A DNA stretch of 64,000 nucleotides from Qipengyuania marisflavi. Its GTDB lineage: Bacteria > Pseudomonadota > Alphaproteobacteria > Sphingomonadales > Sphingomonadaceae. Below the pieces are notes generated by a model. It worked only from the letters and a program-made list of their open reading frames with translations. It did no database searches and was not told the origin of the DNA. The stretch lies in contig NZ_VCAO01000003.1 in the NCBI RefSeq assembly GCF_005884405.1, positions 1 through 64,000 of the forward strand, written 5' to 3'. Positions 26,632 to 30,397 of the stretch are shown one piece after another; within the stretch, counting starts at the first letter, position 1, and the number at the start of each line of letters is the position of its first letter. A program made the position numbers and the translations under genes.

Positions 26632-27270
26632 TCAGCTAGCCTCAATCTGGGTGGCGGCGGCGCATTTTTCGCTCGCCTCGCCGTCACCGCCGCCCAGGAA
26701 GGTCAGCGCCAGAAAACCGGCGACCACGATGGCGACAAAGCCGATAGTGACCAGCCCGAGATATTTGTCGATGAAGCGCTTGATCGGCGCCCCGAACACG
26801 CGGAACAGCACACCCACGATCATGAAGCTGATCGCGCGGCTGAGCAGGCTGGCGAGGATGAACGGCACCAGCGCCATGCCGATGAATCCCGCGGTGATCG
26901 TCAGCAGCTTGAACGGGATCGGCGTCGCGCCCTTCACGATCAGGATTTCCACGCCATATTCGCGCAGATAGCAGGCGGCCTGCGGAAAGCTTTCGGACAG
27001 CCCCAGCCAGCGCAGCAGATCCTGCCCGACGGTGTCATACAGACCCCAGCCGATCGCATAGCCCAGCAATCCGCCCGCCACCGATGCCACCGTGGCAATC
27101 GCGGCAAAGCGGATCGCCTTCTTGGGCTCGGCCAGACACATCAGCCCCAGCAGCGGATGCGGCGGGACGGGGAAAAAGCTCGCTTCGACAAACGCAAACA
27201 CCGCCAGCCACCACGCAGCGTGCGGATGCGCGGCCTTTTCCAGCGTCCAGTCGTATAGCTTGCGCAGCAT
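26632..27270 (-). CDS. YqaA/DedA-like membrane protein
   Basis: A 212-residue integral membrane protein of the SNARE-associated/VTT (DedA-like, YqaA) family. FAFVEASFFPVPPHPLLGLM carries the F/P-rich re-entrant loop, and KGATPIPFKLLTITAG is the second signature loop with the conserved K-x-x-P-x-P-F-K. Four to five hydrophobic helices are visible. Family members take part in lipid or proton-linked transport. Start at 27270 (MLRKLYDWTLE) fits relatives. Confidence 0.88.
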   Translation of the reverse strand: MLRKLYDWTLEKAAHPHAAWWLAVFAFVEASFFPVPPHPLLGLMCLAEPKKAIRFAAIATVASVAGGLLGYAIGWGLYDTVGQDLLRWLGLSESFPQAACYLREYGVEILIVKGATPIPFKLLTITAGFIGMALVPFILASLLSRAISFMIVGVLFRVFGAPIKRFIDKYLGLVTIGFVAIVVAGFLALTFLGGGDGEASEKCAAATQIEAS

Positions 27271-27375
27271 GAGCGTCCCTTCGCCCCTTTCATCCACACC
27301 GGGGTTTTGCCGCGCTTAGGGCAGCACGGCAGCACAGGCAAGCCACCATCAATTATCCTATATGGTTATTTTCTA

Positions 27376-27515: not shown

Positions 27516-28223
27516 ATGACCAAGGACGCGGAACAGGCCGCGCCGGAATGGGCCGCGCGCTTTCTGGCCGCGCTGCGTGCCGGAAGCGGTGTCCGCGCCG
27601 CCGCCCGCGCCGCAGGGGTGACCAGTTCGACCCCCTATCACCGGCGCACCGCCAATGCGGATTTCCGCAAGGCCTGGGATGCAATCAAGCCGGTCGACGA
27701 TCGCCGCAAACGCAAATCCGGCCCCCCGGCGCAGCGCGGCGCAGCGAAGATCGACCGCTTTCTGGAAGAGCTGGCGGCCACCTCCAATGTCGCGGCCGCA
27801 GCGGACACGGCAGATATTGCAACCGCCACGGTCTATCGGCTGCGGCGCGACGATCCCGATTTCGCGCGCCGTTGGTACGCGGCGCTGGCCGAGGGGTATG
27901 ACAATCTGGAAATGGAATTGCTCCAGCATCTGCGCCGCGGGGAAAGCACCGGCGATGCCGCCGCCAAATCCGCAGGCAGCAGCGCCGACCGGGGCAAGTT
28001 CGATATTCCCAATGCGCTGCGCTGTCTGACCGCGCACCGCGACACCGTGGCACGCGAAAAAGGCCGGCGCACCTTGGCAGAGGAGGTTACGACCATCGCC
28101 GCGATCAACACCAAGATCGACGCGATGCGCGCCCGCGCCAGGGAAAGCGAGGCCGCCATCCGCAAGGCGCGCAAATCCGCGGCGGCGGGGAAACCACAGC
28201 GGGACACGCACGGTGACGCATAA
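27516..28223 (+). CDS. Terminase-small-subunit-like protein, first gene of a GTA/prophage remnant
   Basis: A 235-residue basic protein. It has two helix-turn-helix-like repeats: GVRAAARAAGVTSSTPYHRR (about 24-43) and NVAAAADTADIATATVYRLRR (about 88-108), a pattern of small terminase subunits that bind packaging DNA. The C-terminal half is charged and helical. AAGGAG is nine bases before the ATG at 27516. Its stop overlaps the start of the terminase remnant. Assignment to the gp1-like terminase of gene transfer agents is inferred from position and motif. Confidence 0.65.
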   Translation: MTKDAEQAAPEWAARFLAALRAGSGVRAAARAAGVTSSTPYHRRTANADFRKAWDAIKPVDDRRKRKSGPPAQRGAAKIDRFLEELAATSNVAAAADTADIATATVYRLRRDDPDFARRWYAALAEGYDNLEMELLQHLRRGESTGDAAAKSAGSSADRGKFDIPNALRCLTAHRDTVAREKGRRTLAEEVTTIAAINTKIDAMRARARESEAAIRKARKSAAAGKPQRDTHGDA

Positions 28224-28690
28224 CCGGCGTATGCCATCGCGCGGCAGCTGGTTGCGGCGGGCAGGCACCCCGGCGGATGCCGATCGCGAGGAGCTGGCGC
28301 GGCAACTTGCACCGCATGAACTGGCCGCGCTGGGCAGCTATTACTGGGAAGGCTGGGCGCGTGATGCACAATTGCCTCCGCGCGAGGCATGGCGCACCTG
28401 GCTGATCTGCGCCGGGCGCGGTTTCGGCAAGACCCGCGCGGGCGCCGAATGGGTGCGCGATGTGGCGCGCAGCGACGGCAAAGCGCGGATTGCGCTGGTC
28501 GGCGCCAGCCTGTCCGAAGTGCGCAATGTCATGGTGGAGGGCGACAGCGGCGTGCTGGCCGCTGCACCGGGCGCACTGGCCCCGCAATTTGAACCGTCGC
28601 TGCGCAAGCTGACATGGGAAAACGGTGCTGCTGCCTGGCTGTATTCGGCGGGCGAACCCGATAGCCTGCGCGGTCCGCAGCACAGTCACG
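28213..28690 (+). pseudogene. Large terminase subunit, truncated after its N-terminal third
   Basis: The frame from GTG 28213 (or ATG 28231) encodes the ATPase part of a phage/GTA large terminase. WLICAGRGFGKTRAGAEWVRD is the Walker A loop (about residues 63-83) and later SGEPDSLRGPQHSHA is the conserved motif that in intact terminases continues with the W-x-D-E Walker B segment. Here homology stops at 28690. The frame continues only as out-of-frame sequence of the next remnant up to 28776. The nuclease domain is absent, so it cannot package DNA. Confidence 0.85.
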
Positions 28691-29092
28691 CTTGCCGGAC
28701 AGGCGCAGAAGGAATTTTTCGTCAACGAGAGCCTCGCGCGGATCGATATGCTGCTTCACCCGGCGGTCGCTGGTGAAAGCGCAGCCCCGCCCGCATCTCC
28801 CAGTGCGGGCGAATGCTGGCTGGTCGGCGAAACCGCAACTGGCGACTGGGCGGGGCAGGAACATTGTCTGGCGAGCTGGGATGGCACCCAATGGACCTTC
28901 GCCTCGCCAACAACCGCGATGACCGTACGCGAGGTTAGTAGTGGAACACTGATCCGTTACAATGGCGCGTGGCAACGCATTGCGCGCCCTGTAAATCCCT
29001 CCGGTGGGAGTACGGTAGACAACGAGGCGCGTGGCGCAATTGTCACGCTAATTGACCTATTGACTGAGTTCGGGGTTTTTTCCGCCCCATAG
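28688..29092 (+). pseudogene. DUF2793 (GTA tail-region) protein, 5'-truncated
   Basis: From 28688 the frame encodes TLAGQAQKEFFVNESLARID, the near-N-terminal signature of DUF2793 proteins (usually A-L-P-L-L-x-A-G-Q-A-Q-K-E-x-x-x-N-E-A-L). It continues through GECWLVGETATGDWAGQE and WDGTQWTFASP to an apparently complete C-terminus ending in FGVFSAP. No start codon of its own is present. In alphaproteobacterial GTA loci DUF2793 genes lie at the far end of the cluster. Here it is joined to the terminase remnant. Confidence 0.8.
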
Positions 29093-29284: not shown

Positions 29285-30397
29285 ATGCGGAAACTAGTCA
29301 TAGGTATGGCGATGGCCTCTACGGCCCTAGCTTCGCCCGCTCTCGCTCGCGACAACTCATGGTATGTCGGTGGCGAATTCGGTCCGATGCTGGTCGAGGA
29401 TATCGACTTCGATCTCGATCCCGATGGTGTTGCTGACAATCTCGGCGTCTCCACCCACGCAGGCGTAGATGGCGGCGGTTTTGTCGGTTACGATTTCGGC
29501 GCATTCCGCCTCGAAGCCGAAGCCAGCTATCGCACTGCCGATCTCAACGAGATTACTGTTGGTACGACCGGTCTCGCTAATGGCGTCCGTCTGGCACCGG
29601 CCGGTATCTACGGTACCCGTGACAGCGATCTCAGCATCCTTTCGTTCATGCTCAACGGCCTGTTCGACTTCGGTCCCGACGATGGCCTTCAGGGCTATGT
29701 CGGTGGCGGTATCGGTGTTGCCCGCACTTCTTTGGAAGCACGGTTTGGTTCGGCTCCCTCGGTTGACGATTCGGACAGCGGCCTCGCCTGGCAGTTGCTC
29801 GCAGGCGTCAATGCTCCGATCAGTGACAACCTCGATGTTGGTCTGCGCTATCGTTACTTCAACGCTGAAGATGTTGATCTGGTAACGCTTGGCGGTCGTG
29901 ATGCTTCGGACACGATCAGCACACACTCCATCATGGGTACGCTGACATACAACTTCGGCGCTCCTGCTGTGGTCGTTCCGATTGCACCGCCGCCGCCACC
30001 GCCGCCGCCGCCGCCGCCTCCTCCGCCGCCCCCGCCACCAATGGCGTGTGCTTCGGGCCCGTACATTGTCTTCTTCAACTGGGACAAATCGGACATCACT
30101 CCGGAAGCAGCGACGATCCTGGACAACGCGGTATCGGCTTACGCCAACTGCGGTATGGCTTCGGTCATGCTGGCAGGTCACACCGACCGTTCGGGTTCGA
30201 CGGCCTACAACATGGGTCTCGCAGAGCGTCGTAACTCTTCGGTACGCAGCTACCTCAGCGGTCGCGGCATTCCCGATGGGCGTATGAACAGCCAGGCGTT
30301 CGGCGAATCACAGCCGCGCGTTCCGACAGCTGACGGTGTTCGCGAACTTCAGAACCGCCGGGTGGAAATCACCTACGGTCCGGGTTCGGGCATGTAA
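29285..30397 (+). CDS. OmpA-family outer membrane protein with a polyproline linker
   Basis: A 370-residue porin-like protein. A signal peptide (MRKLVIGMAMASTALASPALA) is followed by an 8-stranded beta-barrel part (SWYVGGEFGPML to MGTLTYNFGAP), a linker with about 18 consecutive prolines (around 236-253), and a C-terminal OmpA domain (FFNWDKSDITPEA, LAGHTDRSGSTAYNMGLAERR, QNRRVEITY) that binds peptidoglycan. Codon use is less GC-biased than its neighbours, as in highly expressed genes. AAGGGGAATTAACT precedes the ATG. A strong terminator follows. Confidence 0.93.
   Translation: MRKLVIGMAMASTALASPALARDNSWYVGGEFGPMLVEDIDFDLDPDGVADNLGVSTHAGVDGGGFVGYDFGAFRLEAEASYRTADLNEITVGTTGLANGVRLAPAGIYGTRDSDLSILSFMLNGLFDFGPDDGLQGYVGGGIGVARTSLEARFGSAPSVDDSDSGLAWQLLAGVNAPISDNLDVGLRYRYFNAEDVDLVTLGGRDASDTISTHSIMGTLTYNFGAPAVVVPIAPPPPPPPPPPPPPPPPPPMACASGPYIVFFNWDKSDITPEAATILDNAVSAYANCGMASVMLAGHTDRSGSTAYNMGLAERRNSSVRSYLSGRGIPDGRMNSQAFGESQPRVPTADGVRELQNRRVEITYGPGSGM

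Follow-up and report, generated by a model that had tools for sequence, protein, structure and literature searches.

In the 64,000-nucleotide stretch of Qipengyuania marisflavi DNA analyzed here (the window), the beginning of a gene transfer agent (GTA) large terminase gene runs directly into the end of a DUF2793 gene, which raises the question of what was removed between the two and by what process. The first-pass annotation, made from the sequence alone, had read the locus as a GTA or prophage cluster collapsed by one internal deletion between terminase and DUF2793. For RcGTA-type clusters in Alphaproteobacteria, loss, pseudogenization and 'cheater' lineages have been described (PMC10883770), and it is an open question how GTAs are maintained when non-producing cheaters would be expected to outcompete producers.

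The scar of an RcGTA-type cluster

The locus, on contig C12 of the window genome (G000), is what remains of an RcGTA-type cluster that has lost its body from inside gp2 to inside the DUF2793 gene, and a single deletion of approximately 13 kb accounts for its structure (Table 1). The initial assignment of a terminase-like first gene followed by the Walker A part of a large terminase held. The Pfam Sf6_terminase match to the gp1-like ORF falls slightly below cut-off, and Terminase_6N matches the gp2 ORF (28213-28776, E 2.8e-8) over its N-terminal portion only. The stump comprises the first 159 codons of the large terminase, shares 90% amino acid identity with the intact gp2 of G003 and is cut directly 5' of the WCDE motif, where intact gp2 reads on as ...HAWCDEIAKW. 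Read base by base, gp2 continues to ...LRGPQHSH (codons to 28689) and GC (28690-28691), followed by TT and then by DUF2793; the breakpoints first placed at 28690 and 28688 held to within 6 nt. The proposal that DUF2793 runs to a natural C-terminus was also borne out (normal stop at 29090-29092), as was the offset of the two frames at the join, from which the absence of a fusion protein in the DUF2793 frame had been argued. The statement that DUF2793 begins without a start codon needs correction: a GTG at 28625, upstream in the DUF2793 frame, opens a 155-codon ORF, though the normal N-terminus is missing.

Table 1. Features of the collapsed locus and its flanks, in window positions
Feature	Position	Strand	Basis or remark
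VTT/DedA-like flanking gene	26632..27297	-	same neighbor beside the intact G005 cluster
gp1-like gene (small-terminase-like), first of the GTA cluster	27516..28223	+	ORF; PHROG 4044 terminase small subunit, E 4.7e-19
GTA gp2 (large terminase), N-terminal part, Walker A to LRGPQHSHA	28213..28691	+	Terminase_6N
Two-base core of the join, TT, DUF2793-type	28692..28693	+	collapsed joins compared with intact gp2 and DUF2793 sites
Out-of-frame tail of the truncated gp2 ORF, 27 codons and stop	28693..28776	+	tails vary among collapsed genomes
DUF2793 (tail fiber) gene, 3' part, without N-terminus, natural stop	28694..29092	+	PF10983, E 5.9e-23; intact homolog L062:1592-2212
OmpA-like flanking gene	29285..30397	+	same neighbor beside the intact G005 cluster

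When the locus is compared by synteny with its relatives, a GTA is found at this site and both flanks match gp2 and the DUF2793 gene, the latter called the RcGTA tail fiber protein (PMC10883770). In 17 of the 28 same-genus genomes with both genes placed, gp2 and DUF2793 lie 12.2-14.1 kb apart. The intact cluster of G005 sits between the same two genes and the same VTT-domain and OmpA-like flanks, and its content by Pfam and NCBIfam includes terminase, portal, S78 protease, HK97 capsid, tail completion, tail tube, GTA-gp10, TAC, an Rcc01695-family tail protein, the GTA baseplate hub and DUF2793, with the megatron below its curated cut-off and weak matches to connector and NlpC/P60. Head-tail genes are therefore present at the same site in relatives and the body genes are missing in G000, where neither the capsid nor the megatron protein of G005 finds a match; because of this, the collapsed-GTA account is right. 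None of the findings named as refuting it (relatives without a GTA, flanks from an unrelated prophage, an assembly gap at 28690) applies. Relocation of the GTA body elsewhere in the genome was considered and rejected: the G005 capsid was unmatched in 30 of 32 collapsed genomes tested, the remaining two (G145 and G423) giving only a 40-47% hit, and all five intact controls matched (G016 in two pieces).

The gp2 stump of the window (gp2N, 28213-28689) is 90% identical to that of G441, a genome of another genus code. Against the 30 same-genus species with a match, identity is 54-67% in 23 and 81-90% in the other seven, a mixture that could reflect old allele lineages or an exchange of GTA loci.

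Recurrence and fine structure of the join

Many lineages have undergone this deletion at the same bases, which the first-pass annotation did not anticipate. Our set of distinct collapsed loci numbers 55, with pairwise identity around the join never above 93%. Exactly one register is shared by 50 of them; of the other five, two (G028 and L092) are shorter by 2 nt and three (G291, G133 and L111) are longer by 1 nt. None of the 55 makes an in-frame gp2-DUF2793 fusion. The join readings, core counts and stop counts omit Novo_STE139, Novo_BIN27 and Porphyrobacter_AAP82, which duplicate G-numbered genomes.

In the window and nine other species of the genus, the gp2N and DUF2793 matches lie 29-34 nt apart. 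The distance is exactly 31 nt in eight of the 28 genus genomes (nine with G021, whose profile match begins one codon late) and 29 nt in G028; one genome has 3.7 kb and 17 are intact. A family sample of 397 genomes contained gp2N in 308 and DUF2793 in 339, and in a partial comparison of genomes with both on one contig (n=47) they were separated by 31 nt in at least seven, 1.7-10.5 kb in at least seven and 12.6-15 kb in at least 33. These distances cover only a subset of the genomes with both gp2 and DUF2793 matches and set aside six with the two on separate contigs. A pattern scan of one genome per species (84,980 species), with the spacer free to vary from 5 to 35 nt, returned 37 stretches, of which 35 had the same spacer length, under titles naming Erythrobacter, Porphyrobacter, Qipengyuania, Novosphingobium, Tsuneonella, Alteripontixanthobacter, Altererythrobacter, other Sphingomonadales, Sphingomonadaceae, Erythrobacteraceae and unassigned Alphaproteobacteria; the scan undercounts because one arginine codon was fixed in the pattern. 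The same join is present in the single-contig genomes G014, G019, G027 and G015, which together with the 37 public-record stretches excludes chance and assembly error. A search of the open-access literature (titles and the starts of abstracts) found no description of a gp2-DUF2793 junction.

Collapsed and intact species alternate on trees of both gp2N and DUF2793, requiring 26 state changes on the former (85 rows) and 29 on the latter (82 rows). After branches with support below 95 are contracted, at least 14 and at least 12 changes remain, respectively. The trees keep 47 collapsed and 38 intact loci, 82 of these rows being in the DUF2793 tree. They omit 19 names (three duplicates, partial or other deletions, loci lacking a DUF2793 match or lying at a contig edge, and two collapsed loci interrupted by stops) as well as loci with fewer than 420 nt upstream, six of them collapsed; an earlier 97-row tree, with partial and broken clusters scored as not collapsed, gave 30 changes. 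That removal at the same bases recurs many times independently in this bacterial family is strongly supported by these results, and ordinary random deletion does not explain near-identical breakpoints in many related species whose losses appear independent.

The collapsed genome G020 and the intact G005 share 96% identity to either side of the join, and their alignments reach the join and overlap by two bases. Across six collapsed/intact pairs there is no consistent drop in identity beside the join; in G034/G031 and G139/G207, identity over the 30 nt immediately left of the join is slightly lower than over the following 270, but within the range seen further out. At third positions, collapsed alleles near the join are no more alike than intact ones, although saturation makes this a weak test. 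Both observations argue against import of the junction together with its flanking DNA, although imported stretches as short as a few tens of bases remain possible.

To the left of a two-base core all sequence is gp2, and to the right all is DUF2793. In the 50 in-register joins the core follows a gp2 pattern (CT 17, GT 2, AT 1) or a DUF2793 pattern (TC 17, TT 9, AC 3, TA 1), AT and TT being attributable to either parent. A CC core is never seen in the 50; a crossover placed freely over three positions predicts 7.6 (P of none 0.0003), whereas inheritance of the pair as a unit predicts 1.1 (P of none 0.32), these expectations being drawn from the pool of intact sites and not from each genome's own parent. 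The two middle bases thus appear to derive from one parent as a unit. In five close pairs (those of G020, G014, G252, G015 and G006) the product core is one parent's pair, although in G020 a mixed pair would be indistinguishable. The register is exact in 50 of 55 joins and CC is absent, yet in five other pairs (G034/G031, G139/G207, G419/G096, G280/G437 and G133/G253) the product core matches neither sister, so that in a break-and-join view later mutation or divergence of the sister must account for it.

The two sites offer little likeness that could guide their joining. The gp2 core is mostly CT and the DUF2793 core mostly TC or TT, meaning that the cores usually differ, and no recognizable motif is common to both sites. 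Over 38 intact loci, in-register identity between them is 0.254 against 0.260 in shifted controls, showing no homology, and their likeness as inverted repeats is 0.326 against 0.267, with 13 of 80 shifts as high. The suggested junction microhomology at CACGCTTGCC failed: in intact relatives no more than 3 nt at the join are common to the two ends (mean 1.47 over the 38 loci; shifted controls 1.34). The longest word shared within 60 nt of both sites is 13 nt in the best of the 38 loci and 7.2 nt on average, and of the 50 direct-repeat families of G005, the 20 inspected include none that links the two deletion ends.

Candidate mechanisms and rival explanations

We lean towards reading the pattern as resembling a sequence-specific break-and-join with a 2-nt stagger. 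Our main interpretation, to which we assign a probability of roughly 0.55, is that each collapse was such an event, deleting the GTA body; this is inferred, and no enzyme has been identified. In this view gp2 would be cut directly after CAYGC, and DUF2793 directly before codons that are usually GCN-GGN-CAR, with a 2-nt stagger. The outer ends would be joined with the two overhanging bases mispaired, after which replication or repair would settle the core as the gp2 pair (CT) or as that of DUF2793 (TC or TT). The responsible activity would be distinct from the resident enzymes tested and may be present only at times, carried for instance by a mobile element. The predicted outcome is a GTA-less cell that would be spared the cost of particle production and may still receive particles. 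A bolder reading, which we advance only tentatively and think rather more apt to be wrong than right, is that sphingomonads meet a dedicated, unknown cutting or recombining system that recognizes two conserved coding sites in GTA loci and deletes between them by a 2-nt staggered exchange, serving as a GTA off-switch or as another element's anti-GTA weapon. If an enzyme is responsible, it removes 13 kb flanked by two unrelated coding sequences in the absence of homology, and such an activity would be new.

Known systems provide partial parallels. Programmed excision (skin, the nifD element, prophage excision) removes a defined block at fixed ends and leaves one clean join. The GTA collapse shares the fixed ends and clean join; in contrast, there are no matching att sites, no recombinase was found in the block, its ends lie inside conserved coding sequence and the join restores no gene. 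Serine-recombinase exchange uses a 2-bp core inherited as a unit, as the two bases of the GTA joins may be, but at the GTA sites the two core pairs are usually unlike each other, a mismatch that normal serine recombinases are not known to tolerate, and the gene family (PF00239) is absent from three of 15 collapsed genomes (and four of 15 intact ones). The expectations of an identical core, related arms and a cognate gene are therefore not met, although a transient enzyme is not excluded. Ku is absent from eight of 20 collapsed genomes, including G020, and from eight of 15 intact ones, and IS110 transposase (PF01548) is present in five of 15 collapsed and none of five intact genomes, with none in the other ten collapsed; the genes required for Ku-dependent end joining and IS110 bridge-RNA recombination are thus not consistently present. 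The collapsed genome G015 lacks all three families, and the scanned ORFs of the G005 cluster matched no recombinase family. As the tested families are missing from some collapsed genomes, the agent is unidentified, acts transiently or belongs to another family. IS110 transposases are present in the collapsed G020 and G139 and were not found in their intact sisters G005 and G207.

Viral contigs contained no exact match to the junction pattern, and carriage of the junction by viruses, phages or plasmids was rejected, as two phage and nine plasmid records were only partially similar, within the terminase part.

The strongest rival, which we still consider unlikely, is that one old deletion allele spreads horizontally by recombination from collapsed cells into intact relatives, since short fragments can remove a 13 kb block but not restore it. 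A comparable process is chromosomal curing by transformation, in which deletion alleles spread by short fragments; the same deletion in many strains is common to both, but the GTA case has no evident imported flanks. Horizontal spread would explain the fixed register without an enzyme, both ends lie in well conserved stretches, and GTA alleles may cross genera, as the likeness of the window gp2N to that of G441 allows. The com and dprA genes serve RcGTA DNA uptake (PMC10883770), which also fits, and the shortest tracts are not excluded. Against it stand the lack of a consistent import tract in the six pairs and of extra likeness among collapsed alleles near the join (with the caveat of saturation), and the retention of local codons beside the core: g58 genomes carry AAQ, VAQ or SAQ, and in g69, G322 and G383 have AC-CCC and G286 has TAC-CCG. 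In addition, G161 shares the gp2 end only. An ordinary deletion at a homology or microhomology hotspot, frequent because GTA loss is favored, finds support in the other, scattered-end deletions and in the 13-nt shared word, but microhomology at the join hardly exceeds that of shifted controls (1.5 against 1.3 nt) and no inspected repeat family of G005 links the ends; we regard it as very improbable.

There is similarly little to recommend the idea that the truncated gp1-gp2N-DUF2793 module is useful and its exact join selected. Few stops in the stumps and the low dN/dS of collapsed pairs (given below) speak for it, but neither the tails nor the starts at the join are conserved, the register is shifted in five of 55 loci, G011, G029 and G022 carry other, perhaps later, deletions, and recent repeated collapse accounts for the open frames equally well. 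Creation of a start codon as the selected property was rejected: 16 of the 33 G-numbered collapsed genomes have CAC before the join, a codon that gives no ATG, against 11 of 52 not collapsed. An assembly or database artefact is all but ruled out. Contigs do break at the join in G294 and G200, but the join occurs in single-contig genomes, named strains and metagenome bins, and relatives that are 96% alike differ cleanly.

Fate of the stump and other deletions

Stops occur in the last 125 codons of gp2N in two of 49 collapsed loci examined, and in the first 75 DUF2793 codons in two of 52. The dN/dS of gp2N is 0.09-0.24 in nine collapsed pairs and 0.05-0.16 in eight of ten not-collapsed pairs; the two outliers (G343/G394, 0.78; G007/G035, 0.67) are read as misalignment because the comparison was ungapped. 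A mostly open gp2N with low dN/dS, if slightly higher than in most intact pairs, indicates that the collapses are young or that the stump is kept, and repeated recent loss fits the open stumps best, in line with the published GTA-cheater view (PMC10883770). That work likewise describes repeated loss of GTA genes, but by pseudogenization, complete loss and deletion bias, whereas the present case is one base-precise, recurrent deletion. A base-precise, family-wide deletion is a countable cheater mutation with a known address, whose rate, timing and cause are measurable by PCR or read mapping.

Deletions with scattered ends are found in the same clusters in G441, G448, G126, G352, G182, G103, G064 and G309. 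Three genus members have other joins from gp1 or gp2 to DUF2793, namely G011 (L070), whose join keeps gp2 in frame with the end of DUF2793, G029 (L071) and probably G022 (L072); these may represent later erosion of a collapsed locus. In G161 (L197, around position 2745, reverse strand) gp2 is cut within about 3 nt of the common point and joined to the stretch before a tail gene, the intervening genes being lost, as though the gp2 site could also use a different partner. In G294 (L116/L186) and G200 (L184/L185), the bases at which an intact form like that of relatives would diverge from a collapsed one coincide with the end of the gp2 contig and the start of the DUF2793 contig. We read this as an assembly fork arising from both forms in the sample, an inference drawn from contig ends, not reads, and with the genomes' own intact sites unknown; capsid and megatron are absent from both assemblies.

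Between gp2 and portal, the G005 cluster carries a small GIY-YIG nuclease gene (L062:14819-15121, + strand), also found in nine other not-collapsed loci of the 42 (L064, L152, L073, L148, L170, L063, L153, L137 and L132). The L064, L152 and L073 copies share 91-93% identity with the G005 gene, which therefore looks mobile. It was rejected as the cutter: beyond its presence in only these 10 of 42 loci, it occurs in only three of 12 sisters of collapsed genomes (G005, G016 and G129), giving no association. The same G005 cluster contains, at L062:7797-11205, intergenic repeat modules of approximately 60-130 nt that are 64-95% alike.
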